From Sulfurimonas sp. (GTDB lineage: Bacteria > Campylobacterota > Campylobacteria > Campylobacterales > Sulfurimonadaceae), in contig JAQTZE010000006.1 of the NCBI GenBank assembly GCA_028687935.1, positions 124,001-188,000 of the forward strand: a stretch of DNA of 64,000 bases, in the 5' to 3' direction. Of this stretch, positions 3 through 63,273 are shown in pieces. The notes below the pieces were generated by a model. It saw only the letters and a list, made by a program, of their open reading frames with translations. It had not been told where the DNA came from and searched no databases. A program made the translations under genes and the position numbers. Position 1 is the first letter of the stretch. Each line of letters starts with the position of its first letter.

Positions 3-1394
3 TTATACGCACTCTTTTTGGAGATGAGTTTCCACATGCTAAAACCAACTGGAAAGCTAAGCTATATCTTGCCTCATAAGTTTCTTATCTCTGATTTTGG
101 AAGTGGTTTGCGAGGCTTTTTAGCGGAAAATAAAGCGGTAGAAAGTCTGCTTCATTTTGGAAGTGAAATGGTTTTTGAAGATGCCTCTGCCTACACTTGC
201 ATCGTCACACTTACACATGCCAATGAGAAAATGAATTTTAAAGCGATAAATCCAAAAGATATTTTTGAGCCTTTTGAATATGATTCTATAAAGTATGAAA
301 AATTATGTTCTGAAAAGTGGAATCTCTCCAACCAAGATACGGCAATGGTTTTAGAAAAAATAAATAAACAGCCGCTTAGAGTGAAAGATGTTTTTGCGAA
401 AATATTTCAAGGTATTAAAACAAGTGGAGACCCTATTTATTTACTTTTACAAACAAAAAATGGGTTCTATTCAAAAGAACTAGATAAAGTAGTTGAAATT
501 GAAGAGGGACTTTTAAAGCCTATGCTCAAAGGGGAAGATATAAGCAGATATAATAATTTGCAAAATAGATATTTTGTGATTTTCCCTTATTTGATAGAAA
601 ATGAAAAAGCAAAACCTATGAGTGAAGAATATATCCAAGAAAATTTCCCAAAAGGGCACGAATATTTAAAAGCGAATGAAATATTTTTAAGGGGAAGAGA
701 AAAAGGAAAAATGGATAAAGAAGGTTGGTTCTTATATATTTATCCAAAAAGTTTAACAGAATATCAAAAGAAAAAAATTATTCTTCAAGAGTTAAGCTAT
801 AAATCAAATTTTACTTATGACAGTGTTGGCATGTGCCATGCAGGACAATATAGCATGGTTAAAAAAGAAGATGTAATAGAAAGCGAAAAATATTTTTTGG
901 CACTTTTAAATTCATCATTAATGTGGTTCTTTATTCAAAATACAAGTACAGAATTTAGAGGTGGTTATTTTGCTTATCAAACAAAATATATAGAACCTTT
1001 CCCACTCCCAAAATTAGAAAGCCTAGAGCAACAAAACCCTTTTATAGAAAAAGCCGACAAAATGCTAACCCTAACAAAACAGCTCCAAGAGACAAAACAA
1101 AACTTCCTACATGAGCTGCGTTTAGACAAAGTGCCTAAAAAACTCCAAAACTTTGAAGAACTCACATTTGAGGAGTTTGTCACAGAATTTACAAAAGCCA
1201 AAAAAATAAAATTTGCCGATAAACTCGAAGAACGCAACTTCAAACAAGAGTGGCAAGCCCTCTTTGAAAACGACAAAACCTTGGCATGTGGAATCAAAAC
1301 TGAGATAGAACAAACCGACAAAGAAATCGACATAATAGTCTATAAACTCTATAACCTCACAGAAGATGAAATTAAGATTGTGGAGGGTGTTTAG
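3..1394 (+). CDS. Eco57I/TaqI-like class N6-adenine DNA methyltransferase, C-terminal part (5' truncated by window edge)
   Basis: Frame is open upstream of the called TTG start (LYALFLEMSFHMLKPTGKLSYILPHKFL...), typical of the Eco57I methylase family; TaqI-like specificity domain (YFAYQTKYIEPFPLP) near the C-terminus. Confidence 0.8.
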   Translation, partial: LYALFLEMSFHMLKPTGKLSYILPHKFLISDFGSGLRGFLAENKAVESLLHFGSEMVFEDASAYTCIVTLTHANEKMNFKAINPKDIFEPFEYDSIKYEKLCSEKWNLSNQDTAMVLEKINKQPLRVKDVFAKIFQGIKTSGDPIYLLLQTKNGFYSKELDKVVEIEEGLLKPMLKGEDISRYNNLQNRYFVIFPYLIENEKAKPMSEEYIQENFPKGHEYLKANEIFLRGREKGKMDKEGWFLYIYPKSLTEYQKKKIILQELSYKSNFTYDSVGMCHAGQYSMVKKEDVIESEKYFLALLNSSLMWFFIQNTSTEFRGGYFAYQTKYIEPFPLPKLESLEQQNPFIEKADKMLTLTKQLQETKQNFLHELRLDKVPKKLQNFEELTFEEFVTEFTKAKKIKFADKLEERNFKQEWQALFENDKTLACGIKTEIEQTDKEIDIIVYKLYNLTEDEIKIVEGV

Positions 1395-2182
1395 TGGATG
1401 ATTATTACTTAGTAAAGCAGGTTATTAGAAGTAATTTAAAACGCTCTTTTAAGATATATTGCCCGCTTAATATAGCACATCTAAAAACTTTACTTGATAA
1501 TTTGCCAGGAAATCTTTATGTATATATTGTTAATGCAAAAGACAATAGCACAAAAAATCTAACCAATGAGCTAGGCAAAACAGATTTTAATTACTCATCA
1601 TTTCTCTTAGAAAATACAAAAATTTATCAAGCACGATTTCGTTTTAGTTTGGGTCAGTCAAGTTGGATTGGCGATGATATTCATTTTTATACAATTATTG
1701 ATCCATCACGCTATTTTCCAAAACAATTTTTTTGCTGTGGGTCTGTAACTTTTCCCCATACGACGTGGTTATCACGAGTAGAATTAACAGAATCAGAGCA
1801 ACAACAAAGTAGAGTATATGCTGGTGAGGAATATGAAAAATTTGTAGGAAAAAAATATGAATCTGCAGGCTATATTGTCGATTATCGTGGATTAAATCTT
1901 GGAAAAAAAGATGGTGGCTTAGATTTGATCGCAGAAAATGCGACTAGCATAGTTTTTGTACAGTGTAAGAATTGGATTGAAACAGATAATTATCAGATTG
2001 AGAGTCGAGACTTAAGAGCATTTATTGGGGACTGTTATTTGTTCTTGCTACAAAATACTATTGATAAACGCTTAGCTTTTCATTATATCATTAGCGATAA
2101 TGAAATGTTGTCAGAATCAGCAAAATATTTTATCAACAGATATAAAATGCTTAAAGTAAAAGAGATTAAATTTAACCATTAA
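1394..2182 (+). CDS. Restriction endonuclease-like protein with C-terminal Mrr-type PD-(D/E)xK domain
   Basis: AGEEYEKFVGKKYESAGYIVDYRGLNLGKKDGGLDLIAENATSIVFVQCKNW matches Mrr_cat style motif (GGLDLIA...QCK); GTG start overlaps the preceding TAG stop by 1 nt. Confidence 0.75.
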   Translation: MDDYYLVKQVIRSNLKRSFKIYCPLNIAHLKTLLDNLPGNLYVYIVNAKDNSTKNLTNELGKTDFNYSSFLLENTKIYQARFRFSLGQSSWIGDDIHFYTIIDPSRYFPKQFFCCGSVTFPHTTWLSRVELTESEQQQSRVYAGEEYEKFVGKKYESAGYIVDYRGLNLGKKDGGLDLIAENATSIVFVQCKNWIETDNYQIESRDLRAFIGDCYLFLLQNTIDKRLAFHYIISDNEMLSESAKYFINRYKMLKVKEIKFNH

Positions 2183-5058: not shown

Positions 5059-7626
5059 ATGAGTGAAATGCAAGCAATATATTTAAAAGATTATCAAAAA
5101 CCACACTTTAGTATCGAGAAAGTCGATCTCGTTTTTGATCTGTATGAAGAGTACGCGATGGTTACAAACACCATGGGATTCACAAAAACAGAGTCAGAAG
5201 CAAACGATCTGATCCTCGATAGCACAAGCCTTGAGCTACTCGAGCTTTGGATAAATGACTTACAGCTAGGTGAGAGTCGCTATAGTTATGCAAACGAGAA
5301 GCTCACTATCTTCAATGTTCCTGCTGCGTTTAGCCTCAAAATCATCAACAAAATTTACCCACAAAACAACACAGAACTCGAAGGGCTCTATAAATCAGGA
5401 ACTATTTTTTGTACACAAAACGAGCCTGAAGGTTTTAGAAGTATCACGCCATATCTCGATCGTCCTGATGTTATGAGTGTTTTTACCACGACCGTTATCG
5501 CGGATAAAAGCAAATACCCAATACTTCTGAGTAACGGAAACAAAACGCAGTGTCATGACAACTTCAAAGAGAGACACGCTGTAACATGGTTTGATCCGCA
5601 TCCAAAACCTTCTTATCTTTTTGCTCTTGTAGCAGGTGATCTTGGCTGTGTCAATGATAGTTTTACAACGATGAGCGGCAATGAAATAGAGCTCAATATC
5701 TACTGCGATCTTGGCAACGAATCCAAATGTACCCACGCGATGAAATCACTCAAAGAGTCCATGACTTGGGATGAAGAGAAATATGGCCGCGAATATGACC
5801 TTGAAATCTATAATATAGTGGCAGTAGATAGCTTCAATATGGGTGCGATGGAAAATAAAGGGCTTAATGTCTTCAATTCGCATTATGTTTTGGCGAATGA
5901 AGACACGGCGACAGATGCCAATTTTATGGGTATCCAGAGTGTTATAGCTCATGAGTATTTTCACAACTGGACGGGAAATCGTATCACCTGTCGTGACTGG
6001 TTTCAACTCACACTCAAAGAGGGCTTGACAGTTTTTCGTGATCAGTGTTTCTCGGCAGACCTAAACTCTGCCGAAGTACAAAGAATAGAAGACGTTATTT
6101 CACTCAGGGAGCGCCAGTTTGTCGAGGATGCTTCTCCTACTTCTCACCCTATCCAGCCTGAGTCGTATATCTCTATGAACAACTTCTATACGGCGACTGT
6201 GTATGAAAAAGGTGCTGAAGTTATCCGCATGATTCATACACTTTTGGGAGCAGAAAATTATCGTAAAGCAACGGATTTATATTTTGAGACTTTTGATGGG
6301 CAAGCTGTTACGACTCAAGATTTTCTCTGGGCGATGAGTTCTGCAAGTGGCGTTGATTTGTCACAGTTTGAGCGATGGTATCACCAAAATGGCACGCCAA
6401 AGTTGCATGTGCATGAGAGTTTTGAAGATGGAATCTACAAGCTGCGTTTAACACAAAAAGTACCAAACGCAATAGATGGTAAAACGCAAGAGCCTTATTT
6501 TTATCCTTTGAAGATGGCACTTTTAGATGCTATGAGTGGAGAAGAGATAGTTGCACAAACACTCATTATCTCCAAAGAAGAAGAGACTTTTGTATTTAAA
6601 AATCTAAACGCAAAGCCTATCCTCTCCATCAACCGTGACTTTAGCGTACCTGTGATTATCGAGCAAGAAGAGGCAAACTATGCATTTTTGATGCAACACG
6701 ACAAAAACAGTTTCTTGCGTTACGAATCCGCGCAATCTTTTGCAGTAGAGACACTAGAGAGCATGATGCAAGGCAAAGAGATAAACGCAGCCTTTGTTGC
6801 AGCCTATGGCTATCTTTTGGACTTGAATGTCGATCTCTCCTATAAAGCGCTTTTACTTGAGCTTCCAAGCGTCTCCGCATTGATGCAAAGACAAGAAGAA
6901 GTTGATTTTGAACCGATCTATGCGGCAAAAGAGAAACTCTCAAAACACCTTGCAACGACGTATAAAGAAAAACTGCTAGCACTCTATACGCAACTGCATA
7001 AACCGACATCTGATGCTATCGACAGTATCAGCATGGGCGAGAGAGCGCTTAAAAACAGAGTGCTTCATCTTCTTTCAGCGCTTGAGTCCGATGATATACT
7101 TGCTTTGGCACAAACGCAGTATGAGAATTCGCTTACTATGACAGACCGTATCACAGCGCTTGATATCTTAGAGAACACAAACGCAGCGCTTGCAGGAGTC
7201 GCCCTTGCTGATTTTTATGCAAAATACAAAAATGATACCCTTGTTATGAATAAATATTTCTCTATCCTCTCTGCTTCACATAGAGAAGGGACACTTGATA
7301 GAGTTTTGGCGCTGCAAAATGATCCTGCCTACGATACAAAAGTGCCAAACCTTGTTCGCTCTCTCATTGGTGTCTTTGCAAGAAACTACAAACACTTCCA
7401 TGCAAAAGATGGATATGGATATGCCTTTGTTGCAGATAAAATCATCGAGATAGACGCCTTAAACGCGCAGATTGCTTCAGGTCTTGCAGGAGCTTTTAAG
7501 ATCTATGAAAGGCTCAATCAACACAATAAAACTCTTATGCACAAAGAGTTAGAACGTGTAGTTTCTACACACTCTCTTTCAAAAAATGTTTACGAAATAA
7601 TTAGTAAAATTTTAAAAATTAAGTAA
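5059..7626 (+). CDS. pepN: Aminopeptidase N (M1 family)
   Basis: GAMENKG and HEYFHNWTGNR zinc metallopeptidase motifs, 855 aa. Confidence 0.95.
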   Translation: MSEMQAIYLKDYQKPHFSIEKVDLVFDLYEEYAMVTNTMGFTKTESEANDLILDSTSLELLELWINDLQLGESRYSYANEKLTIFNVPAAFSLKIINKIYPQNNTELEGLYKSGTIFCTQNEPEGFRSITPYLDRPDVMSVFTTTVIADKSKYPILLSNGNKTQCHDNFKERHAVTWFDPHPKPSYLFALVAGDLGCVNDSFTTMSGNEIELNIYCDLGNESKCTHAMKSLKESMTWDEEKYGREYDLEIYNIVAVDSFNMGAMENKGLNVFNSHYVLANEDTATDANFMGIQSVIAHEYFHNWTGNRITCRDWFQLTLKEGLTVFRDQCFSADLNSAEVQRIEDVISLRERQFVEDASPTSHPIQPESYISMNNFYTATVYEKGAEVIRMIHTLLGAENYRKATDLYFETFDGQAVTTQDFLWAMSSASGVDLSQFERWYHQNGTPKLHVHESFEDGIYKLRLTQKVPNAIDGKTQEPYFYPLKMALLDAMSGEEIVAQTLIISKEEETFVFKNLNAKPILSINRDFSVPVIIEQEEANYAFLMQHDKNSFLRYESAQSFAVETLESMMQGKEINAAFVAAYGYLLDLNVDLSYKALLLELPSVSALMQRQEEVDFEPIYAAKEKLSKHLATTYKEKLLALYTQLHKPTSDAIDSISMGERALKNRVLHLLSALESDDILALAQTQYENSLTMTDRITALDILENTNAALAGVALADFYAKYKNDTLVMNKYFSILSASHREGTLDRVLALQNDPAYDTKVPNLVRSLIGVFARNYKHFHAKDGYGYAFVADKIIEIDALNAQIASGLAGAFKIYERLNQHNKTLMHKELERVVSTHSLSKNVYEIISKILKIK

Positions 7627-19776: not shown

Positions 19777-21162
19777 TTATATATTTAAACCTTTTTCACC
19801 ATGAACAGCTTCATCAAGACCAACAGCTTCAGTCTCTTCATCTACTCTTCCGCCACCTGTAAGTGCTGAAGCGATATAGTAAACAACCACAGTTCCTATC
19901 AAAGTAAACAAGCCTACAACTGCTACTGACTCAAGTTGTACCATGAATTGTCCCATTCTATCACCTGAAGCTTTAAGTGGACCATCCCATAATAAGTCTT
20001 GATCTGCTAAAGCGAACACACCCGTTGCTAACGCACCCCATAGACCTGCAAGGAAGTGGATACCAAACGCATCTAAAGAGTCATCATAACCAAGTTTTTT
20101 CTTAAGTACAGCTACACCAAAGAATGCGATTGCTGAACCAACAGCACCGATAATCATCGCACCGCCAACATCAACGAAACCAGCAGCAGGAGTGATTGCT
20201 ACAAGACCAGCTACAACACCTGAAGCAGCACCAAGAAGCGTAGGTTTTTTAAACATTACCCATTCGATTACTAACCAAGTAATAGCAGCGATTGCAGTTG
20301 CTAAAGTAGTTGTTAAGTATGCTAGACCAGCGATTGCATTTGCACCAAATGCAGACCCACCGTTAAATCCATACCAACCGAACCATAAAAGAGCAGCACC
20401 AAGCGCTGTTAACATTACACTCATAGGTTTCATTGCGATTTTTGGATATCCGCTGCGTTTACCAACTAAAAACGCAAGAACTAAACCTGCAAGACCACCA
20501 TTCATGTGAACAACTGTACCACCAGCAAAGTCAAGAGCACCAGCATCAAATAAAAGTCCACCGTCTCCACCCCATACCATGTGTGCGATTGGAGCATAGA
20601 CAACTATTGTCCAGATTGCTACAAACACTATCCATGTAGAAAACTTGATTCTCTCAATGACTGAACCAGATGCGATTGCAACCGTAATAGCGGCAAAAGT
20701 ACCTTGGAACACAACAAATACGTAGGTAGGATATGTTCCACTTAAGTCATTCCACTTGATACCATCAAGGAACATATGGCTAAAACCACCCATAAATGAT
20801 TGAACACCTGCTGATTCAGCAGTACCAAACGCAATTGAATAACCAACTGCTATCCATGCAACAAAAGCAACTACAAACGCAGATAAAACCATTGCGTATG
20901 TATTGAGAACATTCTTCGAACGTGTCATACCTGCATAAAAGAGTGCAAGACCCGCTGGAGTCATGAGGAATACTAATGCAGCGGACATCATCATCCATGC
21001 AGTGTCACCACTATCTAAAGTAGGCGCATCTTCAGCTAGTACTAAAGAAGGTAAAAGCGTTAAGGCTAACAATAACCATTTTTTCATCGTAAATTCCTTT
21101 TTTTCCGATTTTTTACTTTCGGATTTATTTATTTCGAGGAAAAGTATAACATCTACTTGCAC
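19777..21162 (-). CDS. amt: Ammonium transporter (Amt/Rh family), second copy; probable start is internal (MKKWLLL...)
   Basis: LDFAGGTVVHMNGGLAGLVLAFLVGKR, WFGWYGFNGGSA; signal peptide after the internal Met. Confidence 0.93.
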   Translation of the reverse strand: MQVDVILFLEINKSESKKSEKKEFTMKKWLLLALTLLPSLVLAEDAPTLDSGDTAWMMMSAALVFLMTPAGLALFYAGMTRSKNVLNTYAMVLSAFVVAFVAWIAVGYSIAFGTAESAGVQSFMGGFSHMFLDGIKWNDLSGTYPTYVFVVFQGTFAAITVAIASGSVIERIKFSTWIVFVAIWTIVVYAPIAHMVWGGDGGLLFDAGALDFAGGTVVHMNGGLAGLVLAFLVGKRSGYPKIAMKPMSVMLTALGAALLWFGWYGFNGGSAFGANAIAGLAYLTTTLATAIAAITWLVIEWVMFKKPTLLGAASGVVAGLVAITPAAGFVDVGGAMIIGAVGSAIAFFGVAVLKKKLGYDDSLDAFGIHFLAGLWGALATGVFALADQDLLWDGPLKASGDRMGQFMVQLESVAVVGLFTLIGTVVVYYIASALTGGGRVDEETEAVGLDEAVHGEKGLNI

Positions 21163-21288
21163 GCTTGCTATACAGGAAATTGATTAATTTTTAATCACTA
21201 TTTTCCATTTCCAAGGTTTTGGCTTCACATCTTCCCATATAAAGATATGTAAGTATAAACTCACCCTATTTCCACATTTCTTAAGGGA

Positions 21289-23817
21289 TTGTTAGGTATT
21301 ATAAAACAATTTTATTTACATAGGGTGTTTTATATGGGTGACTTGTTAAACAATGATGATATTCAGACTGTAAAGATTGAAGAGACTCTACAAAGTAGCT
21401 ACCTCGATTACTCAATGAGTGTAATCGTAGGCCGTGCTCTTCCAGATGTTAGAGATGGACTCAAACCAGTTCACAGAAGAATTCTTTATGCGATGGATAA
21501 ACTAAGTTTATCGCACGGAGCTAAATTTAAAAAATCTGCACGTATCGTCGGGGACGTTATCGGTCAGTATCACCCGCATGGTGATACAGCTGTTTATGAT
21601 GCACTTGTACGTATGGCGCAAGACTTCTCAATGCGTATGCAACTTGTTGATGGTCAGGGTAACTTCGGTTCTGTTGATGGTGACTCTGCGGCGGCAATGA
21701 GATATACTGAAGCACGTATGACGAAGTATGCTGGTGAGCTTCTCAAAGACTTAGAGAAAAATACAGTTAACATGATAGATAACTACGACGGTACTACAAA
21801 AGAACCAGATGTTATGCCTACACGTGTTCCAAACCTTCTTATTAATGGTTCTTCAGGTATTGCTGTTGGTATGGCTACAAATATTCCTCCGCATAACCCA
21901 ACGGAGATTATGAATGGTCTTAAGGCACTTTTGGCAAATCCGAGCATCTCTCTAATTGAAATTATGGAACATATTAAAGCTCCAGACTTTCCAACAGGTG
22001 GAACTATCTTCGGTAAAAAAGGGATTATGGACGCATATGATACAGGCCGTGGCCGTATCAAAGTGCGAGCAAAAACACACATAGAACAAAAAGCTAAAAA
22101 AGAAGTTATCGTTATTGATGAACTTCCTTATCAAGTAAACAAAGCACGTTTGATTGAAAATATTGCAAACCTTGTAAAAGATAAGATGATAGACGGCGTT
22201 TCTGAGATCCGTGACGAATCAGATCGTGATGGAATGCGCGTTGTTATCGAACTTAAACGCGATGCAATGAGTGAAATAGTACTGAACAATCTTTTCAAAC
22301 AAACAAGCATGCAAACTACTTTTGGTATCATCATGCTATCTATATTAAATCAAGAACCAAGAATTTTTGGTATTATAGATATACTCAAGTACTTTATTAA
22401 TCACCGTAAAACAATTATCATCCGTAGAACTATCTTTGATCTTGAAAAAGCTAAAGCACGCGCGCACATCTTAGAAGGTCTTAAAAAAGCAATCGATATC
22501 ATCGAAGATGTTATCCGTGTTATCCGTGCTTCAAATAGTGAAGAGCTTGCAAAAAACAACCTTGTAACAGAGTTTGACTTCTCTGAGATTCAAGCAGCAA
22601 GTATCGTTGCAATGAGACTCGGAAGACTCACAGGTCTTGAGATTGAAAAAATCGAGAACGAACTTCGTGAACTTATCGAACTCATCGAGTATCTTGAGTC
22701 TATCCTCAAAAGTGAAGAGGTACTTCACGGTATTATCGCACAAGAGTTTGATGAAGTCTCTGCTACATATACAGATGTAAGACGTACTGACATCGAAGAT
22801 GATTATGATGATATCGATATCGAAGATCTTATTCCAAATGAGCCAATGGTTGTAACAATCACACACCGTGGTTATATCAAACGCGTGCCACTTGGTGCAT
22901 ATGAGAAACAAAAACGCGGTGGCAAAGGTAAAACAGCTGTAACTACTTATGAAGATGACTTTATTGAAAGATTCTTTACATGTAATACGCATGATACGCT
23001 TCTTTTTGTTACAGATCGTGGTCAACTTCACTGGCTCAAAGTATATAGAATACCTGAAGGCAGTAGAATCGCAAAAGGTAAGGCAGTTGTCAATCTTCTC
23101 AGCCTTGTCGCAGATGAGAAAATTCGTTCAATCATCCCTACTACAGACTTTAGTGATGAAAAATCACTTGTATTCTTCACACAAAAAGGTATCGTAAAAC
23201 GTACAAATTTAAGTGAATTCTCAAATATTAGAAGCAATGGCGTTCGAGCGATTGTTCTTGATGATGATGATGCACTTATCACGGCAAAAATTGCTGATCA
23301 AGATATCAAGTATCTCTTTATCGTGACAAAATTGGCACAATGTATCAAATTTGAGATAGAAAAAACTCGTGATCAAGGTAGAAGCACACGTGGTGTAAGA
23401 GGTATCAAGTTCAAACATGAAGGTGATGAAGTAGTCGATGCGAATATTATTGCAAATGACGAACAAGAGATTCTAATCGTCAGTGAAAAAGGTATCGGAA
23501 AACGAACAGATGCTGGCGAGTACAGACTCACGAACCGTGGTGGTTCTGGTGTTATTGCTATGAAAATGACAGCAAAAACAGGTAAGTATGTTGTTGGTAT
23601 TCTAATGGTCGATGAAAGCATGGATATGATGGCACTTACTAAAGCTGGTAAAATGATACGTGTTGATATGCAAAGTATCTCAAAATCAAGTAGAAACACT
23701 TCTGGCGTTTATATAGTAAAAGGTGATGATGTAGCAAGTATCTCTCGCTGTATCAAAGAAGAAGAGGAAGATGAAGATGATTTCGATGGAGAACCATCTT
23801 TATTAGATTTGGAATAG
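21289..23817 (+). CDS. gyrA: DNA gyrase subunit A
   Basis: [40 protein letters not shown] GyrA-box-like; probable start [11 protein letters not shown] at 21334. Confidence 0.97.
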
Positions 23818-23850
23818 TACTTGCTTAATTTGAGCAATACGATAAAACAC

Positions 23851-23870
23851 AAGCGCCTTTTGGTGCTTTT
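23851..23870 (+). terminator. Putative terminator downstream of gyrA
   Basis: AAGCGCC-TTTT-GGTGCTT followed by TTTCT. Confidence 0.5.
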
Positions 23871-23883
23871 CTAAGGAAAACTT

Positions 23884-24399
23884 ATGAAATACTCTTTGCT
23901 TTTGATTGCATTTTTGGGTGCTGGGTCACTTATGGCTGATGAAGCGCCTGTAAGTAATATCACTATAAACTGTGAGAATCCAAAAACAGGTGAAACATGT
24001 CAAAAATCCCCAACGGAAGTCATTGATGCAACAGGTATGGATACTGTTGTTTCAGATGTACCTAAAAAAGATGCTTTTTTAGCAAAGGGTGCTGAAGTTC
24101 GTATCAGCGTTATCGGTCAAGGTGTTGCTCCAATGAACACATCCTCACCTGCGCAGGCATATGCTCTTGCAAAACGTGCTGCTACTGCAGATGCGTATAG
24201 ACTTTTGGCCGAAAAAGTTAAAGGTGTAAGAATCGATGGCCAAGATTTGATCAAGAACATGATGGTACAACGTTCAACCGTTCGTACTACAGTTCAAGCT
24301 ATGGTCAAAAACGCGAATGTTGTTGAGACAACGTTTAAAGAGGGCCTATGCGAAGTAGAGATGGAAATCGTCTTAGCGCACTCTCAATTTTCAAACTAA
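23884..24399 (+). CDS. LPP20-family-like exported protein
   Basis: Signal peptide; SSPAQAYALAKRAATADAYRLLAEKVKGVRI... Confidence 0.65.
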   Translation: MKYSLLLIAFLGAGSLMADEAPVSNITINCENPKTGETCQKSPTEVIDATGMDTVVSDVPKKDAFLAKGAEVRISVIGQGVAPMNTSSPAQAYALAKRAATADAYRLLAEKVKGVRIDGQDLIKNMMVQRSTVRTTVQAMVKNANVVETTFKEGLCEVEMEIVLAHSQFSN

Positions 24400-24761
24400 T
24401 ATTCCTCTTTTATTCACTTGCACTGAGTGCCGGTGAATATCTCATATCTTATCGCTATGTCACACAAAATGCAATTCTCTACAACGAAGTACTCTCTATT
24501 GCTAAAGCCATGCACAAATGCACTGGTACACCCTCTTCCACTTTGATATTAGAAAGTGATGGAAGCGATAATTTAAATCAAATAATTTCTCAAAATGAAG
24601 ATGAATTTTTATCCTTTATCCATGCCCTTGGACTCGATGTTAAACATTCTGAGATAAATACCAATTTGCAAAATAGTTCTACAACTATTCTCACACTCAA
24701 AACCACTTGTTTCAAAGTCAATTTTAATGATAATTTCGCTAAAATTTCCCCTTTAAATTAA
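24348..24761 (+). CDS. Hypothetical exported protein overlapping the previous gene
   Basis: ORF with hydrophobic segment IFKLIFLFYSLALSAG; starts 52 nt before the upstream stop. Confidence 0.5.
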   Translation: MRSRDGNRLSALSIFKLIFLFYSLALSAGEYLISYRYVTQNAILYNEVLSIAKAMHKCTGTPSSTLILESDGSDNLNQIISQNEDEFLSFIHALGLDVKHSEINTNLQNSSTTILTLKTTCFKVNFNDNFAKISPLN

Positions 24762-24773
24762 GGGTACTTTATA

Positions 24774-25913
24774 TTGAAAATAGCAATAGTTGAAGATGAT
24801 ATCAACATGAGAAAATCTCTTGAGATTTCTATGAGTGATTATACAGAGTTTGAAGTCAAGACATTTAAAAGTGCCAAAGATGCCCTTAAAGCTCTTGACG
24901 AAAGCTTCGATTTGATTATTACAGATATCAATATGTCAGGTATGGACGGTATAGAGTTTGTAAAAACGCTAAATGGCCGCTTTGAAGTCATCATCATGAC
25001 AGCAAACGCAACACTTGGTCGTGCTATTGAGTCTATACAACTTGGCGTAAAAGATTTTTTACTCAAGCCATTTGATATAGACACCTTAGTCGATGCGATA
25101 AAGCGTGAAGATAAGATCCAAAAAGTCAAAAAAACAGTGCAAACGCAAGAGAAAAATGCAAGTGGATTTCTTGCTACGTCCAAAGCACTTGAAACTATTA
25201 TAAATATAGCAGATAAAGCATCCAAAACAGATGCAAGTATCCTTTTGCTTGGAGAGAGTGGTGTCGGTAAAGAGGTCTTTGCTTCGTATATCCACAACAA
25301 CTCTCCAAGAGCGAGCAAACCCTTTGTAGCTATCAATATGGCCGCACTTCCAGAAAACCTTATAGAGAGTGAACTCTTTGGTTTTGAAAAAGGTGCGTTT
25401 ACAGATGCAAGTGAAGCTAAGGCTGGACAATTTGAACTTGCGAATGGTGGAACACTTTTCTTAGATGAGATAGGCGAAATGCCCTATGGCGTTCAAGCGA
25501 AACTTCTTCGTGCTTTGCAGGAAAAAGAGATACGTCGTCTTGGTTCTTCTAAGTCTATCAAGATCGATATCAGAGTTGTCTCAGCAACAAACGCAAAGCT
25601 CGAAGAGAAGATAAAAAATGGTGAATTTCGAGAAGATCTCTACTACAGACTCAACACGATTCCTTTGCTTATCCCAGCATTACGTGAACGAACTGAAGAG
25701 ATACTGCAAATAGCAGAAGCTATGATAGAGCAAAACTGTAAAAAGTATGGATTTGAGAAGAAATACTTTTCCAAAGCGGCAGTGGAACAACTCTTAGACT
25801 ATAAATGGCCTGGCAATATACGAGAACTACTCTCTGTTGTCGAGAGAGCTGTCATTTTAAGTGAAACAAACGAGATTGAAGCCAATGAGCTTTTTTTACA
25901 CAATAGAGTTTAG
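24774..25913 (+). CDS. Sigma54-dependent NtrC-family response regulator
   Basis: REC domain, GESGVGKEVFASYIHNNS Walker A, ESELFGFEKGAFTDA (GAFTGA-like). Confidence 0.9.
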   Translation: MKIAIVEDDINMRKSLEISMSDYTEFEVKTFKSAKDALKALDESFDLIITDINMSGMDGIEFVKTLNGRFEVIIMTANATLGRAIESIQLGVKDFLLKPFDIDTLVDAIKREDKIQKVKKTVQTQEKNASGFLATSKALETIINIADKASKTDASILLLGESGVGKEVFASYIHNNSPRASKPFVAINMAALPENLIESELFGFEKGAFTDASEAKAGQFELANGGTLFLDEIGEMPYGVQAKLLRALQEKEIRRLGSSKSIKIDIRVVSATNAKLEEKIKNGEFREDLYYRLNTIPLLIPALRERTEEILQIAEAMIEQNCKKYGFEKKYFSKAAVEQLLDYKWPGNIRELLSVVERAVILSETNEIEANELFLHNRV

Positions 25914-25921
25914 GAGATACA

Positions 25922-26959
25922 ATGAAAAAATATAATGTAGCGGTTGTCGGAGCAAATGGAGCGGTTGGAGAAGAGATTTTATCAGTTCTCTCGGAGATAG
26001 ATTTTCCACTTAATAAGTTAGTGCCATTGGCAAGTGCAAGAAGTTTGGGTAAAACTGTTAGCTTTAATGGTAAGGATTTACCAATCATAGAGCTGACACA
26101 TGATGTTTTTAAAAAAGAAGAAATCGATATCGCACTTTTTAGTGCTGGCGGAAGCGTAAGTGCTGAGTTTGCACCTTCTGCAGTTGCTGCAGGTGCTGTT
26201 GTTATCGATAATACATCACACTTCAGAATGCAAGAGAATGTTCCTTTGGTCGTGCCAGAAGTAAATCCTGAGGATATTGCAAAATGGAGAGACACAGGTA
26301 TCATTGCTAACCCAAACTGCTCGACTATCCAAATGGTTCAAACACTGAAACCTCTTGACCTTGAGTATGATTTGCAGCGCGTAGATGTTGCGACATACCA
26401 AGCAACTTCAGGCGCAGGTAAAACTGCTATGGAAGAGCTTGTCACACAGATGCAAGATTTCTTTGCGTTTAAACTTGACGAATCAGAACATAAATCATTT
26501 AAACACCAAATCGCTCTCAATGTCATCCCTCAAATCGATGTTTTCACAGATAATGGATACACAAAAGAAGAGATGAAAATGGTCAATGAGACAACGAAAA
26601 TCATGCACAAAAAAATCCCACTAAGTGCTACATGTGTTCGTGTACCGACACTTCGTGGACATGCAGAAGCATTGACACTTACATTTAAAACGGAAGTAAC
26701 TGCAGATGCTGTGAGAAAAGTACTCAGCAGAGCACAAAATATCGTTATCCTTGACCAGCCATTTGAAGCACTCTACCCTATGCCTGCTACGTGTGTAGAT
26801 ATGAATGAGACTTTTGTCGGTCGCATCAGAAGTGACACATTCGATAAAAAAATAGTTCATATGTTCGTGGTCGCTGATAACCTCCGCGTCGGTGCTGCTA
26901 CAAACGCAGTAAGAATCGCTCAAAAATGGGTTGAGATGGAAGGGGAAAATAATGATTGA
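25922..26959 (+). CDS. asd: Aspartate-semialdehyde dehydrogenase
   Basis: VAVVGANGAVGEEIL, NPNCSTIQMV active-site Cys, RVPTLRGHAEALTL. Confidence 0.95.
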   Translation: MKKYNVAVVGANGAVGEEILSVLSEIDFPLNKLVPLASARSLGKTVSFNGKDLPIIELTHDVFKKEEIDIALFSAGGSVSAEFAPSAVAAGAVVIDNTSHFRMQENVPLVVPEVNPEDIAKWRDTGIIANPNCSTIQMVQTLKPLDLEYDLQRVDVATYQATSGAGKTAMEELVTQMQDFFAFKLDESEHKSFKHQIALNVIPQIDVFTDNGYTKEEMKMVNETTKIMHKKIPLSATCVRVPTLRGHAEALTLTFKTEVTADAVRKVLSRAQNIVILDQPFEALYPMPATCVDMNETFVGRIRSDTFDKKIVHMFVVADNLRVGAATNAVRIAQKWVEMEGENND

Positions 26960-27494: not shown

Positions 27495-27532
27495 CATACG
27501 CTAGTGTCTAAAAACTATTTAAAGGATATGAT

Positions 27533-42078: not shown

Positions 42079-44061
42079 TTACTTCTGTGATTGTATCAAG
42101 AATTCTGTAACTGCCAAAGAGGCCTTGTAATACTCTTGGCACCTTTGCTCACTTGGTGTCATTGCCTTACCCTCTTCAAAGCCTCCATCTTGGCTCATAA
42201 TAACACCTGCATCGTTAAATCCACAGTGCAGTACATTTGCATCCAAAAGATTTGTACCGATAGCAGTGTAGTCTGCATCACTCAAGGTAAGATTGTAGAG
42301 TGTTGGAAAGATATCTTTATGTGAAGAAGGAACGAGCGTATCAATAGCTTTTTTTGGTTTGAGATACTGGGGCAGATAGAGATAAAAAGGAATACGTTTT
42401 GTTTGTGTGTAGTAGTTATCATAACGCATATTTCCCTCTATCGTGTTGTTATCCGCTGTAAACGCAACGACTGTATTTTTGGCAAGCGCAGAGCCTTTGA
42501 TATTATCTAAAAACTCACCTGCCATATCTACTGCATAGGCATAATCTTTAAAACGCAGCTCCATCAGTGAAGGCTCACCCGTTATATGATTTTTCAGATC
42601 TTCTGACATCTCAAGTCTGTTGGATGTATAATCCTGCGGAATCTTATAAGGCGGATGGTTGTTTGTCGTGAGCACATAGATAAACTGCGGCTTCGTTGCG
42701 TTTTGCAGTTTTTGCTCTATGTATTGATAGAGATATCCATCAAAAACACCCCAATCATGCGAGATAGACTCCATATCTTTACCAAGAGCATTGGCGATGA
42801 CTGCTTTTCCAGCGACATGCTCGAAGCCTTGTTTGAGAACGAAATTCCCCACATTTCTCCATGAAAGATCCCCTCCATAAACAAAACTTGTCTCATAGCC
42901 TGCGTTTTGGTAGACTCTTGCGCTTGCCTGTGTAAACTCCGTATTTAAAAATTCACTTTGGGCAAAAGAAGTAGAAGATGGACGCGCCGTTATATTAAGT
43001 AATAATGGCTCAAGAGAGACTATCGTGCCGTTTGAACTGGATATAAAACGGGTAAAAAGTGTATCCTCTTCAAAATGTTTTTTGATCTTACCCATGATAT
43101 TGAAACTCTCACTCTGATAATCAAGCAGAGGCATCCCAAAACTCTCAACCATCACAACGACCACATGCGCTGGTTTTTGTTTGAGAAGTTCGTTGGATGG
43201 CGTTTTGTAGTGAATATTACCCAGAAGATTTTCTTTGTCTATCTCCTGCGTTTGCTTGTGGATTTCAAAGGCTTTTTCTATCTTGCCTTGGTAACCCACT
43301 GTTTTTATCAAATCATAATTACCAGATTTACTCTTCTCATATTGCTCATAGGAGTTCAAAAGTGCATAGGTAGAAGTCTGTGGAAGACAGTTGAGAAACG
43401 GATCAGCGCTCACATCTTGGGTGTTGTAAGCAAGCGGAAAAAGCCCAAGAGAACCACGTCCTAGCAATGCGAGAGAGAGTATAATAAAAAGGAAAAAGAA
43501 GCTCTGTTTCCAAGGATTCCAAGTGAGTGGACAGCCATCTTTTTGTCTGATAATCTTAAAGATCAAAAAATAGAGCAGAGAAAAATAGAGTAAAAATCCA
43601 AACGCAAAGAGCGGTATGTTGTAGTTTGCAAACGCAGTGTTGAGTAGAGCCGTCGTATCATCATCAAATACACCAAAGATCATCAGTGTAGAGTGCTCTC
43701 CAAAGTAGGATAAATAGGCTAAATCCATAAAAGTGAGCAAGGAAAGAAGTGTCAAAAAGAGGACAAAATAAACTCTAAAAAAGTTATAGAGATACTTCTG
43801 TAAAAAGCTCAAACGCAGCACCCAAACGAAAAACACTAATAAAACTGCCAAAGAGTTTATATAAGCAACTATGCTTGCATCAAGTCGTACACCAAGCCAA
43901 AACGCAGCTAAAGCTTCAGATGGATCGTAAGAAAAAGTATTGCTATAAGTGATAAATATATAGAGTCGCACCAATGACATAAAAGCCAAAATAGCGAGAG
44001 AGAGCTCCAAAAAACGAAAAAGAAGCTTAGATAAAAATGAGAAATGATTTTGTTTTTGCAT
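42079..44061 (-). CDS. LtaS-like membrane sulfatase-family transferase
   Basis: N-terminal TM domain, then VVVMVESFGMPLLD...FTADNNTIEGN alkaline-phosphatase/sulfatase fold. Confidence 0.8.
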   Translation of the reverse strand: MQKQNHFSFLSKLLFRFLELSLAILAFMSLVRLYIFITYSNTFSYDPSEALAAFWLGVRLDASIVAYINSLAVLLVFFVWVLRLSFLQKYLYNFFRVYFVLFLTLLSLLTFMDLAYLSYFGEHSTLMIFGVFDDDTTALLNTAFANYNIPLFAFGFLLYFSLLYFLIFKIIRQKDGCPLTWNPWKQSFFFLFIILSLALLGRGSLGLFPLAYNTQDVSADPFLNCLPQTSTYALLNSYEQYEKSKSGNYDLIKTVGYQGKIEKAFEIHKQTQEIDKENLLGNIHYKTPSNELLKQKPAHVVVVMVESFGMPLLDYQSESFNIMGKIKKHFEEDTLFTRFISSSNGTIVSLEPLLLNITARPSSTSFAQSEFLNTEFTQASARVYQNAGYETSFVYGGDLSWRNVGNFVLKQGFEHVAGKAVIANALGKDMESISHDWGVFDGYLYQYIEQKLQNATKPQFIYVLTTNNHPPYKIPQDYTSNRLEMSEDLKNHITGEPSLMELRFKDYAYAVDMAGEFLDNIKGSALAKNTVVAFTADNNTIEGNMRYDNYYTQTKRIPFYLYLPQYLKPKKAIDTLVPSSHKDIFPTLYNLTLSDADYTAIGTNLLDANVLHCGFNDAGVIMSQDGGFEEGKAMTPSEQRCQEYYKASLAVTEFLIQSQK

Positions 44062-56557: not shown

Positions 56558-58465
56558 TTGTCATTTAAAAATCGATATACACAGGTCATTTGGGCCACAC
56601 TGCTTAGTTTTGGACTTTTTTTAGCACTTCGCATCTTCTTTTATCTCTCTTACACTGAGTACTTTTCCTCACTCAGCGGCTACGAAGCCCTGCTCTCTTT
56701 TTTGATGGGATTTCGCGTCGATACTGCCATCATTTTTACTCTCACTTCCCTTTTATGGCTGGCACTTCTTTTACCGCTGCGTTTTACTTACTTTAAATCT
56801 TACCGCATCGTTTTAGGAACACTTTGGGGAGTTCTCATTGCCTCCGTGCTCTTTTTCAACATTGGCGATGTTCTCTATTTTGGCTTTGTAAACCGTCATC
56901 TCAGCGATGAACTTGCTCTCATCGGCAATGATGTCGGTATCCTCTTTAGTATGGCGATAGACTACTATTTTTACCAGAGCATACTCTCGAGTATTTTATT
57001 TCTTTTAGTCGTTGCGCTCTTTTATAAACTCTTCTCAGCCAAGATAGAGGACACCCGCCTCTACCACAAAGAGTGGCTCTTTATCCCGCTTATCATTGCC
57101 CTTGCGTTTTTAGGGATACGAGGCAAAACAGAGGGGATATCTTTTGGAGTCTCAGACGCTTTTGCAGTCAACAAACTCGCTTCAGGCAATCTCGCTCTCA
57201 ACGGCTTTTTCTGCTATTACAGAGGCGGTAACCGCCAAAATACAAACCATGCAGGCATAGAACTCGATACTGCGATAAAAAATGTCAAAAACGCAACAGC
57301 TTCAGACAAAACGCTCTATCCAAAGAGTGAATATCCGCTGATGCGAAGCTACACAAACGCAGAGAAAAAGCCCTACAATGTCGTCATTATCATGATAGAG
57401 AGTTTCAGCGCCGAGTATCTTGACGCACTAGCAGGCAATCATCTTGGCATCACTCCGACACTTGACGCTCTTGCAAATTCTGGTCTGCTTTTTACAAACT
57501 TTTATGCCAACGGACAGCGTTCTCAAGAGGGTATCACATCACTTTTTACAGGTATTACCCAGCCTGTGGGATTTGAAAATTATGGAGAAGGTTTAGAGCT
57601 TTACAACCTCAGCTTTTTGGGAAAAATGGCACAAGCAAATGGCTACCATACTTTGGCGATGCAAAGCTCAGATCGTGGCTCTTTTCGTGTAGATAAGCTT
57701 GCTTCTCTCGCGGGATTTAGCGACTACTACGGAGCAGAAGATATGCCAAGAAGCGGTGATGAAGTCGGCACTCCAAACTACGGCGCTTGGGATGGAGATA
57801 TGCTCCGATTTTTGTCCTCAAAGCTTCACACTATCAAAGAGCCTTTTATCTCCTTTGCGTTTAGCGCATCAACGCATGCACCCTACTATTCCCCAGGAAA
57901 AGAGTGGGAAAAATATCCTCATAGCACAGAGAGTGAATATGGTTTTTTGAACACGATGAACTATATGGACAGCCAAATAGCTGCGTTTATGGATCAAGCC
58001 AAAAAAGAGCCTTGGTTTGAGAACACCATTTTTATCTTCACAGCCGATCATACAAATCACGCCGAAGTCGCTTCTGCTTCTGAAGTACAAAAGAAAAAAA
58101 TCGAACTCGCTTCCTATCATATTCCGCTTATCATCTATGCGCCAAAAATCTATCAGGCGAAGAGAGTTGATACAGTTGGTTCTCATGTAGATATCTTAGC
58201 GACACTTACAGATATTTTGGGCTGGGAAGAGCCTTTTACAAGTATCAGCTCTTCACTCTTTGACACAAGTGTCACGCAGAGATTTGCCTTTGTCAAACAC
58301 GGTGGCGAAGTAGCACTCACGAACGGCAAAGCAAGTGTACACTACAACTTCAACGCATTTATGGATGGAGATGACAATAGCTCAAAAGAGCTCCAAGAGT
58401 TGCTTCTAAGCATCGATACAGCGCAGGCAAAACTGCTCAAAGAGACAAAATGGATGCAACAATGA
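56558..58465 (+). CDS. LtaS-like membrane sulfatase-family transferase (TTG start)
   Basis: TM domain; VVIIMIESFSAEYLD...FYANGQRSQEGITSLFTG...IFTADHTNHAE. Confidence 0.85.
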   Translation: MSFKNRYTQVIWATLLSFGLFLALRIFFYLSYTEYFSSLSGYEALLSFLMGFRVDTAIIFTLTSLLWLALLLPLRFTYFKSYRIVLGTLWGVLIASVLFFNIGDVLYFGFVNRHLSDELALIGNDVGILFSMAIDYYFYQSILSSILFLLVVALFYKLFSAKIEDTRLYHKEWLFIPLIIALAFLGIRGKTEGISFGVSDAFAVNKLASGNLALNGFFCYYRGGNRQNTNHAGIELDTAIKNVKNATASDKTLYPKSEYPLMRSYTNAEKKPYNVVIIMIESFSAEYLDALAGNHLGITPTLDALANSGLLFTNFYANGQRSQEGITSLFTGITQPVGFENYGEGLELYNLSFLGKMAQANGYHTLAMQSSDRGSFRVDKLASLAGFSDYYGAEDMPRSGDEVGTPNYGAWDGDMLRFLSSKLHTIKEPFISFAFSASTHAPYYSPGKEWEKYPHSTESEYGFLNTMNYMDSQIAAFMDQAKKEPWFENTIFIFTADHTNHAEVASASEVQKKKIELASYHIPLIIYAPKIYQAKRVDTVGSHVDILATLTDILGWEEPFTSISSSLFDTSVTQRFAFVKHGGEVALTNGKASVHYNFNAFMDGDDNSSKELQELLLSIDTAQAKLLKETKWMQQ

Positions 58466-59721: not shown

Positions 59722-60396
59722 TTGCCAATGAATAAAAAAATATTACAGATACCTCTCTTCGTTTGGCTGCTCTTTACTGGAGTTTCTCTTACTTTTACTC
59801 TCTTCCCGCAAATTGACTTGTATGTCGCATCTTTTTTCTTTGATGGCACAAGTTTTCCTATGAATGGCACGCTGTTTGAAGAGTTTTTTTACTACTCGGT
59901 CAAGCCTGTACTTATCTTTTTCATAGGAGGAACTCTCCTTCTTTTCCTCTACAACTATTTTGGCAAAAAAAATCTTCTTGGGATAAACGCAAGAGTTCTT
60001 TTGTATCTTATTTTAGTTTTGGGGCTCGCACCTGGACTTCTTGTCGATAGTGTGTTTAAAGAGAACTGGGAACGCGCACGTCCTTCACAAGTCGCAGAGT
60101 TTGGAGGCGATAAAAAGTTCACTCCAGCATTTATTATCTCAGATCAAAAAGGCTACTCTTTTATCTCAGGACATGCTGCAGGCGCTTTTTCACTCCTTGG
60201 TTTTGCACTCTTGGCTAAACGCAGACGAGAGCTTTGGATAACAGCAGTGATGAGTTACGGGGTTTTGGTCAGTTTTGCCAGAGTCTCTGCGGGCGGGCAC
60301 TTTTTGAGTGATGTTGTCACCTCATTTTTTATCGTCACCATCTTTACCTTTATCTTCTACTCAATCCTTATAAAAGAAAAAAATACCAATGTTTAA
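59722..60396 (+). CDS. PAP2-family phosphatase (non-ATG or slightly internal start)
   Basis: KENWERARPSQ, YSFISGHAAGAFSLLGFALLA, RVSAGGHFLSDV. Confidence 0.9.
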   Translation: MPMNKKILQIPLFVWLLFTGVSLTFTLFPQIDLYVASFFFDGTSFPMNGTLFEEFFYYSVKPVLIFFIGGTLLLFLYNYFGKKNLLGINARVLLYLILVLGLAPGLLVDSVFKENWERARPSQVAEFGGDKKFTPAFIISDQKGYSFISGHAAGAFSLLGFALLAKRRRELWITAVMSYGVLVSFARVSAGGHFLSDVVTSFFIVTIFTFIFYSILIKEKNTNV

Positions 60397-62302
60397 AAAT
60401 CAACTCACGCAAATATTCTCACTACTCCTCTTTAGTTTTATCGTTATGATGGGCATCCGCCTCTCACTTTTGAACTTCTATCCTGATGATTTTATGGACC
60501 TCACGCAAGCTGAACTCTATGCTTCACTACTAATGGGCGTACGTGTGGATATGATTACGCTCTTTACTTTCTCAGCAATTTTCATCCTGCTCCTACTTTT
60601 TGTCAAAAAAACAAAAACGCGCGTTTATATCGGACTTGCTTGGGCACTCATTTTAAACACTATCTTTATCCTCAGCTTCAGCGATGTGCTCTACTACGAC
60701 TATATCCACAGACACATCTCAAACGAGATCTTCAACCTTGGCGAAGATTGGGATATCATCATCGGTATGGCTTTAGGTTCTATGCTTTTGTATACGCTTG
60801 GGGCAATGCTCCTCAGTGCTGCGTTTATCTATGGCGTTTACAAAATATTTGCCCATGATTTGCAAGATTTCATCTCAGGGAAAAAGCTTTTTATCACTGC
60901 GTTTATCGCAGTTTTAGTGCTTTTTCTGGGCATCCGCAACAACCTCGGAGGCAAAAGTTTTGGTAGCAGTGATGCTTACGCTGTCAACAAAGTAAGCTCT
61001 GGCAATCTCGCCCTTAATGGCTTTTTTACCATTTACAGAACAGCCAAACAATCAAACAAACACACTCTGATGAAGCTTGATAAAGCGGTTGCGATGACAC
61101 AAGAGGCAATGCTCTCAAAAAATGCACCTTTTATCGACACAGAGTATCCGCTTCTGCGTCAATATACGCAAAAAGAAAAACCGAAATACAATGTCGTCAT
61201 CGTCTTATTGGAATCTTTTGGCGCGGAACATCTCGATGGTTTCACCCACTACAAAGAGCTCGGTGTCACCCCATACTTTAAAAAACTCTCCAATGAAGGT
61301 CTAAAGTTTACAAACTTTTACTCCAACGGTTACCGCTCTATTTTTGGAATCACTTCTATCTTTACGGGACTTACCATCCCTTATGGCTTTCAATATCTCG
61401 GTAAAGGTTTGGAACTCTCAAAACTGAGCTATCTCGGCCAAGTCGCCAAAGAAAATGGCTACAGCACCCTCGCAATGCAAGCAGGAAACAGACGCTCCTA
61501 CAGAGTTGATGCGGTGAGTGCTTTGGGTGGTTTTGATGATTATTATGGTGCAGAAGATATGCCAAATATAGAGAATACAGATGCGGGTCGCGCACCGCTC
61601 ACGGGAACCTATGATTTTAATATGCTTGACTTTTATCATAACAAACTAAACGCAATGAAAGAGCCTTTTATGGGCTTTGCGTTTACAGATTCTACCCATT
61701 CAGACTTTCATCTCCCAAGTGCAAAATATGAGCGTTATCCCCATGATCTCAAAAACTATAACGGCTCACTCAATGCCTATATCTACGCAGACAGCGCTAT
61801 CGAGCGTTTTATGGAGAGTGTGAAAAATGAGCCGTGGTTTGAGAGAACTATCTTTATTTTCACCTCCGATCATGGAAGCGGTGATGCCCTCAACCCGATT
61901 GCAAGAGAATACCGTCCTGATGATACAGCACTCTCTTCTATAGAGCATTTCAGGATTCCGCTGATCATCTATGCGCCAAAAATATTCAAGCCTGAAGTCA
62001 TAGAGACGCTTGGTTCTCACAACGATATCTTCCCCACTATCGTGGATATGCTCGGTCTCAAAGCAAATATCAGTACTATGGGAAGCTCTTTGTTTGATGC
62101 AGATGTCAGTAAAAGATTTGCCTACTTTTTTGCTGGAAACCTCATCGGACTGATCACAGATGATGGCTATATCAAATACAACTTTAAAAATATCGTAGAG
62201 AGTTCGATGGACGCAAATAAAACGCAGGAGCTCAAAGAGCTTCTATTTGCAATCGATACTGCTGAAGCAGGTTTGCTACAGAAAAATAGGTGGACGAAGT
62301 GA
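60389..62302 (+). CDS. LtaS-like membrane sulfatase-family transferase
   Basis: TM domain; NVVIVLLESFGAEHLD...FYSNGYRSIFGITSIFTG...FIFTSDHGSGDA. Confidence 0.85.
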   Translation: MFKNQLTQIFSLLLFSFIVMMGIRLSLLNFYPDDFMDLTQAELYASLLMGVRVDMITLFTFSAIFILLLLFVKKTKTRVYIGLAWALILNTIFILSFSDVLYYDYIHRHISNEIFNLGEDWDIIIGMALGSMLLYTLGAMLLSAAFIYGVYKIFAHDLQDFISGKKLFITAFIAVLVLFLGIRNNLGGKSFGSSDAYAVNKVSSGNLALNGFFTIYRTAKQSNKHTLMKLDKAVAMTQEAMLSKNAPFIDTEYPLLRQYTQKEKPKYNVVIVLLESFGAEHLDGFTHYKELGVTPYFKKLSNEGLKFTNFYSNGYRSIFGITSIFTGLTIPYGFQYLGKGLELSKLSYLGQVAKENGYSTLAMQAGNRRSYRVDAVSALGGFDDYYGAEDMPNIENTDAGRAPLTGTYDFNMLDFYHNKLNAMKEPFMGFAFTDSTHSDFHLPSAKYERYPHDLKNYNGSLNAYIYADSAIERFMESVKNEPWFERTIFIFTSDHGSGDALNPIAREYRPDDTALSSIEHFRIPLIIYAPKIFKPEVIETLGSHNDIFPTIVDMLGLKANISTMGSSLFDADVSKRFAYFFAGNLIGLITDDGYIKYNFKNIVESSMDANKTQELKELLFAIDTAEAGLLQKNRWTK

Positions 62303-63273
62303 GGATATTAATCATTCTTCCGAACTGGCTTGGTGATGCGATCATGGCGACTCCTGCGATAGAGCTTTTATGCCAAGAGTATCCAAACGCAAGACTCACA
62401 TTTGTAGGAAGCTATGCAAGTATCGAAGCACTCAAACATCATCCTAGATGTGAGAGAGCGATTGTAGATGAGACAAAAAAAGCTTCTTCTCGTTTACTAG
62501 CGACCTATAAACTTGCACGTGAACTCGGCACTTTTCATCTTGCTATAAGTTTTCGAAACCAACTGCACGCTTCACTTTTACTGCGTTTTACAAATACTGT
62601 CGTCTGCATTGCGAAACGTTCATGGCACTCAATATTTTTGCTCTCACATACTCCAAAAATTTCGACAACGCAACATCTCGCCCTGCAGTATGCAGAGCTT
62701 GCCATGAGCGACACACATACATGGAATGGACAAACGCCACCTTTAGCACTCTATATCCAAACAAAACAGTTCCAAAAACCTACGCTTGGAATAAACGCAG
62801 GGGCAACCTATGGAAGTGCGAAACGCTGGTATCCTGAGAGATTTGCCCAAGTAGCGGCTGCGTTTAGTGAGAAGTTTGATATTCTCATCTTTGGTGGTCC
62901 CGGTGAAGTTGCTATGGCAAAAGAGATAGAAGATTCTCTGCTGCGTTTAGATGTCACAAACTACATGAATATAGCGGGGAAAACAAATATCCAAGAGCTG
63001 TGTGCAAATATCGGAGGATGTTCGTTATTTATCACTAATGACAGCGGACCTATGCATGTTGCAGCAGCCTATCAAGTACCAACTGTGGCTATTTTTGGAC
63101 CGACAAAATATACCGAGACGTCACAGTGGATGAATAAAAAAAGTAAGATTGTTAGACACGAGATGAAGTGTAGCCCATGTATGAAACGCGAGTGTCCGCT
63201 TGGACATCACGAGTGCATGACGACTATTACAGTTGCAGAGGTTATCGCAGCTGTCAAAGAACTCGGATTTTAA
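62290..63273 (+). CDS. waaF: ADP-heptose:LPS heptosyltransferase II
   Basis: ILIILPNWLGDAIMATPAIELL; FITNDSGPMHVAAAYQVPTVAIFGPT; CSPCMKRECPLGHHECM. Confidence 0.93.
   Translation: MDEVRILIILPNWLGDAIMATPAIELLCQEYPNARLTFVGSYASIEALKHHPRCERAIVDETKKASSRLLATYKLARELGTFHLAISFRNQLHASLLLRFTNTVVCIAKRSWHSIFLLSHTPKISTTQHLALQYAELAMSDTHTWNGQTPPLALYIQTKQFQKPTLGINAGATYGSAKRWYPERFAQVAAAFSEKFDILIFGGPGEVAMAKEIEDSLLRLDVTNYMNIAGKTNIQELCANIGGCSLFITNDSGPMHVAAAYQVPTVAIFGPTKYTETSQWMNKKSKIVRHEMKCSPCMKRECPLGHHECMTTITVAEVIAAVKELGF

Follow-up and report, generated by a model that had tools for sequence, protein, structure and literature searches.

A dense, non-palindromic heptamer in Sulfurimonas as a probable DNA uptake sequence, with alternative words in related genomes

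Results

Over-representation of AAACGCA in the window and the genome

The window analyzed here, a stretch of 64,000 nt from a 2.58 Mb Sulfurimonas genome of 42 contigs, holds gyrA (21289-23817; TIGR01063) and is studded with the heptamer AAACGCA and its complement TGCGTTT. Sulfurimonas sp. GWF2_37_8 had the closest gyrA in our genome collection (96%), and other Sulfurimonas came next; as this genus belongs to the Campylobacterota, the result agrees with the Campylobacterota-like lineage suggested in a preliminary description of this DNA. Three LTA-synthase/phosphoglycerol-transferase/sulfatase-like proteins are also encoded in a 20-kb part of the window (42079-44061, 56558-58465 and 60389-62302).

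Counting on the + strand gave 78 copies of AAACGCA and 82 of TGCGTTT, or 160 in total (78 +, 82 -), with the consensus (H)AAACGCA(R). The first copy starts at 1117 and the last occupies 62942-62948. The preliminary description, counting by hand, had arrived at about 75 and 81 over the same span of 1117-62948, and all 29 of the coordinates that it gave proved exact. With each copy given by its first base and the strand of AAACGCA, the first part of the window carries the word at 1117-, 2252+, 2283+, 2466+, 2655-, 2693-, 2706-, 2839-, 2894-, 3086-, 3301-, 3490-, 4165-, 4433+, 4605-, 4858+, 5325-, 5543+, 6443-, 6465+, 6482+, 6606+, 6783+, 7112+, 7179+, 7880+, 8333-, 8828-, 9658-, 10087- and 10122-, and it continues up to gyrA at 10858+, 11320-, 11776+, 11818-, 12190-, 12424+, 12805+, 13832+, 15237-, 15249-, 16002+, 16377+, 17533-, 17677-, 17821-, 18146+, 18155+, 18980+, 19007+, 20065+, 20454-, 20470+, 20827+ and 20875+. 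Beyond gyrA, copies lie at 25004+, 25141+, 25394-, 25589+, 26464-, 26902+, 28525+, 28705+, 28853+, 29036-, 29147+, 29487+, 29864+, 30273-, 30533-, 31224-, 31456+, 31777-, 31886-, 32372-, 32379+, 33617- and 33650+, then at 34761+, 35161-, 36070-, 36457-, 37823-, 38171-, 38516+, 38699-, 38780-, 39957-, 40075-, 40919+, 41227+, 41425-, 41485-, 41581+, 42460+, 42551+, 42697-, 42901-, 43247-, 43600+, 43630+, 43811+, 43900+, 44311- and 44717+. The remainder are found at 45846-, 46150-, 47768-, 48150-, 48303-, 49209-, 49375+, 49798-, 50248+, 50468+, 50579-, 50677+, 51055+, 51099+, 51493-, 51693-, 52851+, 53338+, 53423-, 53652-, 53820+, 53889+, 54047-, 54078+, 54234+, 54686+ and 54901-, and at 55100-, 55140+, 55237-, 55382-, 55834-, 56236+, 56269-, 56778-, 57103-, 57289+, 57355+, 57856-, 57982-, 58685+, 58739-, 59455+, 59985+, 60217+, 60820-, 60898-, 61648+, 61678-, 62220+, 62385+, 62582-, 62793+, 62859- and 62942-.

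No other 7-mer in the window is as strongly over-represented as AAACGCA. Under an order-2 Markov model 16 copies would be expected, both strands pooled, and the independent-base estimate given earlier was 8; both fall far below the observed 160. The sister words that differ at the last base are much rarer, with 20 copies of AAACGCG, 18 of AAACGCC and 18 of AAACGCT on both strands, so that the earlier figure of about ten or fewer for each holds roughly per strand and not for the two strands together. Across the whole genome AAACGCA occurs 2,407 times forward and 2,351 times in reverse (4,758 copies) compared with 383 + 357 = 740 for the reversed control word. Copies are denser in the window (1 per 400 bp) than in the genome on average (1 per 542 bp).

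Synonymous codons were then shuffled within each of 402 ORFs (429 kb sampled), which gave an expectation of 125.6 ± 10.2 copies vs an observed 740. Protein content and codon usage therefore do not explain the word, the more so as the shuffled pool still contains the word's own codons, which makes the null conservative. Four small contigs with zero copies (L094-L097) were masked N and left out; masked N makes up 11 kb of the 429 kb and leaves the comparison unaffected. Markov and codon-shuffled nulls had been named beforehand as the way to check the word, and neither reproduces its count, confirming that the over-representation in window and genome is real. Everything other than the counts was worked out on stretches of this genome that add up to about 418 kb of unmasked sequence.

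Anatomy, orientation and reading frame

Alignment of 621 copies from a 332 kb sample gave the consensus HAAACGCAR, that is (not G)AAACGCA(A/G). There was a slight preference for C after the R and nothing clearly informative farther out, and no AT tracts flanking the core were seen in this sample; the window copies showed a weak preference for A/T at +12, which did not hold up in this larger set. In the window 89% of copies are followed by A or G, a preference already noticed by eye. Positions 1-6 are intolerant, their single-base variants lying near or below Markov expectation, and position 7 is somewhat relaxed (C 66, G 82 and T 82 vs expected 25, 29 and 55).

In 21 stretches totalling about 420 kb, the two orientations, earlier described as balanced, stood at 418:386, and the ratio did not vary significantly between stretches (p = 0.71). 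Orientation showed no relation to GC skew (380:383), and neither replication polarity nor leading-strand polarity was found. All six reading frames are used, with 436 sense and 304 antisense copies; the commonest frames are xxA-AAC-GCA and xxT-GCG-TTT, which read x-Asn-Ala and x-Ala-Phe. Copies occur in unrelated genes, and their density is higher in coding DNA (1.95/kb) than between genes (1.23/kb).

One perfect inverted pair, TGCGTTTAAACGCA at 32372-32385, forms a head-to-head palindrome of two words, and is one of three close inverted pairs in the window (the others being 6443-6471 and 20454-20476). At spacings of 7-20 bp the genome has 17 inverted vs 10 direct pairs, a slight excess of inverted ones. 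A role of inverted pairs as terminators was rejected, such pairs being hardly enriched. The largest gap between copies in the window (20882-25003) contains gyrA, and the second largest is 1.6 kb. The gyrA gap is likely due to strong coding constraint in a highly conserved gene that leaves few places for the word. Copies are not spaced more evenly than random (CV 1.17).

A mobile island nearly devoid of the word

At 17.5-37.5 kb of another contig of this genome (C18), a 20 kb region contains a single copy of AAACGCA vs 39 expected (p = 4e-16). This low-GC region has genes for a phage-type integrase, a Mob/relaxase protein, an MmeI-type restriction-modification (IIG) enzyme, a Fic protein, an nSTAND3-Mrr protein and a PrrC-like ATPase. 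Its gene content marks it as a putative recently acquired defense island, noted at 20001-35000 of the contig (L082:1-15000); the depletion of the word in mobile DNA described here is that of this one island.

Relatives share the word or carry a different one

A survey of the family showed strong enrichment of AAACGCA only in some Sulfurimonas (for example 3,677, 3,453, 2,941 and 1,983 copies); other members of the genus had it more weakly, and 17 other genera of the family were near control level. Among 249 genomes of the phylum, no other genus showed enrichment, the top ratio elsewhere being about 2.5. Genomes of one genus in the same order (g30, family f2; G235, G256, G277, G391 and others) had 2- to 2.5-fold more AAACGCA than its reversal, far below the Sulfurimonas level.

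Other Sulfurimonas genomes carry different words. In G107 the 9-mer CCACATGCC is present in 703 + 724 copies (1,427) compared with 1 + 1 for its reversal, and seven further Sulfurimonas genomes have about 620-1,400 copies; in AAACGCA genomes it was never above background (3 + 4 in the genome studied here). This TTCCACATGCCAA word has a 9-bp core and a bias across 13 bp. A second word, CTCACGCA, occurs 388 + 369 times vs 17 + 6 for the reversal in G039 (a genome recognized by its identical AAACGCA counts as the cultured S. indica, locus L008), and about 620-950 times in five other genomes (control about 25). A further group uses AAACGCG(A/G), together with AAACGCA and AAACGCC, and G177 has AACGCCA weakly. 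The genome of locus L060 (G450) contains CTACATCCC 220 times vs 46 for the control, with the extended form TCTACATCCCAA; its architecture resembles that of TTCCACATGCCAA and it is possibly a further dialect. Comparison with sister genomes, proposed earlier as a check, thus found relatives that either share AAACGCA or carry another word, and the main words are mutually exclusive between genomes. Several of the words share an ACGC core.

On a gyrA tree the words were grouped, with 21 changes vs a shuffled mean of 27.7 and none of 200 shuffles as low, using labels that are approximate as they were drawn from 3-22 kb per genome. Taken by themselves, the genomes labelled AAACGCA and those labelled AAACGCG were scattered.

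Other repeated sequences were also encountered. The repeats of L075 (GGATATAGGATATA) were rejected as an uptake word: they have the appearance of a local repeat, with nearly all copies on the same strand. Three Sulfurimonadaceae loci (L068, L077 and L036) show an excess of the palindrome TTACATGTAA (TACATGTA core), which is HIP-like. The sequence CGCAATGAC/GTCATTGCG, with 17 copies vs 0.7 expected, was seen in loci of G107, G142 and G083 (e.g. L029 and L135), which are genomes with the CCACATGCC word.

Fate of individual sites

Individual sites were followed in DNA alignments of the genome with its relatives, using 7-mers of equal GC as controls; same-word and other-word relatives had similar overall identity (75-76%). 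In same-word relatives 36/82 AAACGCA sites were kept exactly (control 21%), compared with 11/248 in other-word relatives (control 18%); in the latter, most of the remaining sites were one or two mismatches away from the word, with the fourth base changed most often. For CCACATGC, 70 of 118 sites were kept among users vs 1 of 72 in relatives without the word (control 11-14%). As retention was above control in users and below it in non-users, sites are created lineage by lineage and then held. Uptake bias would have this outcome, which neither mutation bias nor protein constraint would readily give.

Competence genes and candidate receptors

A search for competence genes, which the preliminary description had recommended, found ComEC (425 aa), DprA (257 aa), pilins and a T2SS/Cts-like operon with secretin, ATPase and pseudopilins. 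The DprA ORF is intact, an apparent stop being an artefact of the matched frame. Two PilA-like pilins lie on the same contig as comEC, there is a further pilin of 228 aa, and a minor-pilin cluster sits behind a surface protein of 1,663 aa.

In both this genome and the dialect genomes, comEC lies about 7-8 kb from the pilin pair, which makes this pair a lead for the competence pilus. In G001, which has a CTCACGC word, five pilin genes were all that was found, and T2SS-type pseudopilins were missing; this favors the comEC-linked and minor-pilin clusters over the T2SS operon, and points to them as the putative uptake pilus. Each of the 18 congeners examined encoded ComEC, whether or not a word had been detected in it, and each of the 11 word-carrying genomes examined had pilins. 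Gene presence therefore does not separate word users, and ComEC was rejected as a discriminator. When the pilins of 12 genomes were compared by identity, none tracked the dialects. The first comEC-linked pilin (L131:14525-15490; L180-L190) has a nearly invariant N-terminus and a C-terminus that is highly variable between congeners, as if under diversifying selection.

Discussion

We consider it very probable that AAACGCA(R) is the DNA uptake sequence (DUS) of this Sulfurimonas lineage. The preliminary description had proposed a DUS/USS-like word, and its proposal gains from the failure of both nulls, from sister genomes that share or replace the word and from the competence genes; exclusion from the island, the absence of strand polarity and word-specific site conservation, three tests added here, all agree with it. 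From these observations, together with the density and balance of the word and its clade-wise turnover, we infer its identity strongly.

In the scheme that we propose, the word would be bound on extracellular double-stranded DNA by a protein exposed on the competence pilus, most likely one of the minor pilins or pseudopilins, and DNA carrying the word would be pulled in preferentially. One strand would enter through ComEC, be protected by DprA/RecA and recombine at homologous sites, so that alleles with the word, or gaining it, would replace alleles without. Because uptake would favor word-bearing fragments, copies would accumulate genome-wide, in both orientations and in any permissive frame, and newly arrived mobile DNA would hold no accumulated copies. 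If receptor specificity shifts in a lineage, the old word would decay and a new one accumulate, which we propose as the origin of the dialects within the genus. The receptor, the uptake bias and a gene-conversion-like accumulation are the parts of this scheme that we infer. We know of no uptake or transformation experiment in Sulfurimonas.

The best placed of the other explanations, though an improbable one, is a Chi-like recombination word read by AddAB/RecBCD that has accumulated because it promotes repair. Chi words are likewise short, non-palindromic, over-represented and found in coding DNA. In the best-studied cases, however, they are strongly skewed to the leading strand, whereas AAACGCA shows no strand preference on any stretch and no dependence on GC skew; the 9-bp core and 13-bp bias of TTCCACATGCCAA are longer than known Chi words, and neither replacement of the whole word between congeners nor exclusion from mobile islands is known for Chi. 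Slightly less probable again is the recognition site of a DNA methylase or restriction system, kept as an epigenetic or protective mark. Enzymes of types I, III and IIG typically recognize non-palindromic sites of 6-8 bp, and the C18 island encodes an MmeI-type IIG enzyme. Restriction sites are usually avoided, however, and AAACGCA is enriched about tenfold; that enzyme itself lies within the word-free island, and we know of no precedent for methylation sites being created one by one at homologous places.

A word for chromosome organization or segregation (KOPS, matS, SlmA-type or a nucleoid-protein site) would be expected to be spread genome-wide, as AAACGCA is, but is very unlikely. KOPS-like words are strand-polar, and the balanced orientation with no relation to GC skew speaks against KOPS-like as well as Chi-like roles. 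The sites of matS and SlmA are near-palindromic and regional, whereas AAACGCA is non-palindromic and even between stretches, and at 1 per 542 bp it is far denser than chromosome-organization sites. A by-product of amino-acid usage, codon usage or mutation bias, to which the x-Asn-Ala and x-Ala-Phe frames might point, can be set aside given the codon-shuffle result (126 vs 740), the use of all six frames and the relatives at about 76% DNA identity that have a different word in place of AAACGCA.

The DNA uptake sequence reading invites comparison with known systems. Uptake words are enriched between genes in Neisseria and Haemophilus; in contrast, AAACGCA is not, and its inverted pairs are hardly enriched. 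The DUS of Neisseriaceae is read by ComP and has eight dialects (PMC3630211). Like it, the Sulfurimonas words are short and non-palindromic, number thousands of copies at similar density and have clade-wise dialects. In Neisseria, uptake words occur at 1 per 400-1100 bp and their density falls sharply in genomic islands (PMC7371117), as at the C18 island. The differences are that HAAACGCAR, TTCCACATGCCAA and CTCACGCA are other words in another phylum, that none of the three has a CTG core within a GCCGTCTGAA-type word, and that the competence genes include a T2SS/Cts-type operon and PilA-like pilins. Neisseria dialects share CTG (PMC3630211), to which the shared ACGC core may be a parallel.

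In Pasteurellaceae the USS is AAGTGCGGT and variants, with ComN proposed as receptor (PMC12616744), and both Pasteurellaceae and Neisseria words favor one orientation within reading frames (PMC2346458). The Sulfurimonas word is similarly over-represented, non-palindromic and inside genes, with an orientation bias in frame (436 sense vs 304 antisense), but its core differs from AAGTGCGGT and ACAAGCGGT, it has no AT-tract pattern at the core and no clear enrichment of inverted pairs, and there are at least four words within one genus. By sequence, then, the Sulfurimonas words belong to neither family, although they appear to act like DUS and USS. Nearer relatives are Campylobacter jejuni (Cts T2SS-like) and Helicobacter pylori (ComB), which are of the same phylum and, with regard to competence, resemble Sulfurimonas in ComEC and a Cts-comparable T2SS-like operon. 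They differ in that AAACGCA is near control in all non-Sulfurimonas genera (at most about 2.5-fold), and no specific uptake sequences have been identified in C. jejuni (PMC3458841). Cyanobacterial HIP1 is also a dense genome-wide word, but it is palindromic, unlike those of Sulfurimonas.

In the open-access literature searched, we found no report of uptake words in Campylobacterota, and priority is not certain. The only families in which sequence-selective uptake by means of genome-wide words is established are, to our knowledge, the Neisseriaceae and Pasteurellaceae. It is likely that uptake words have evolved a third time, independently, in Campylobacterota, with at least four mutually exclusive dialects in one free-living sulfur-bacterial genus, and that a competence pilus or T2SS-like machine carries a receptor of a new class that reads them. 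If so, self-recognition by a DNA word would evolve readily, and Sulfurimonas, as an unusually dialect-rich system, would offer natural replicates for the joint change of dialect and receptor. The finding would bear on barriers to gene exchange between abundant sulfur-oxidizing bacteria, and would offer a practical route to transforming Sulfurimonas in culture; for S. indica, for example, the donor DNA would be given CTCACGCA.
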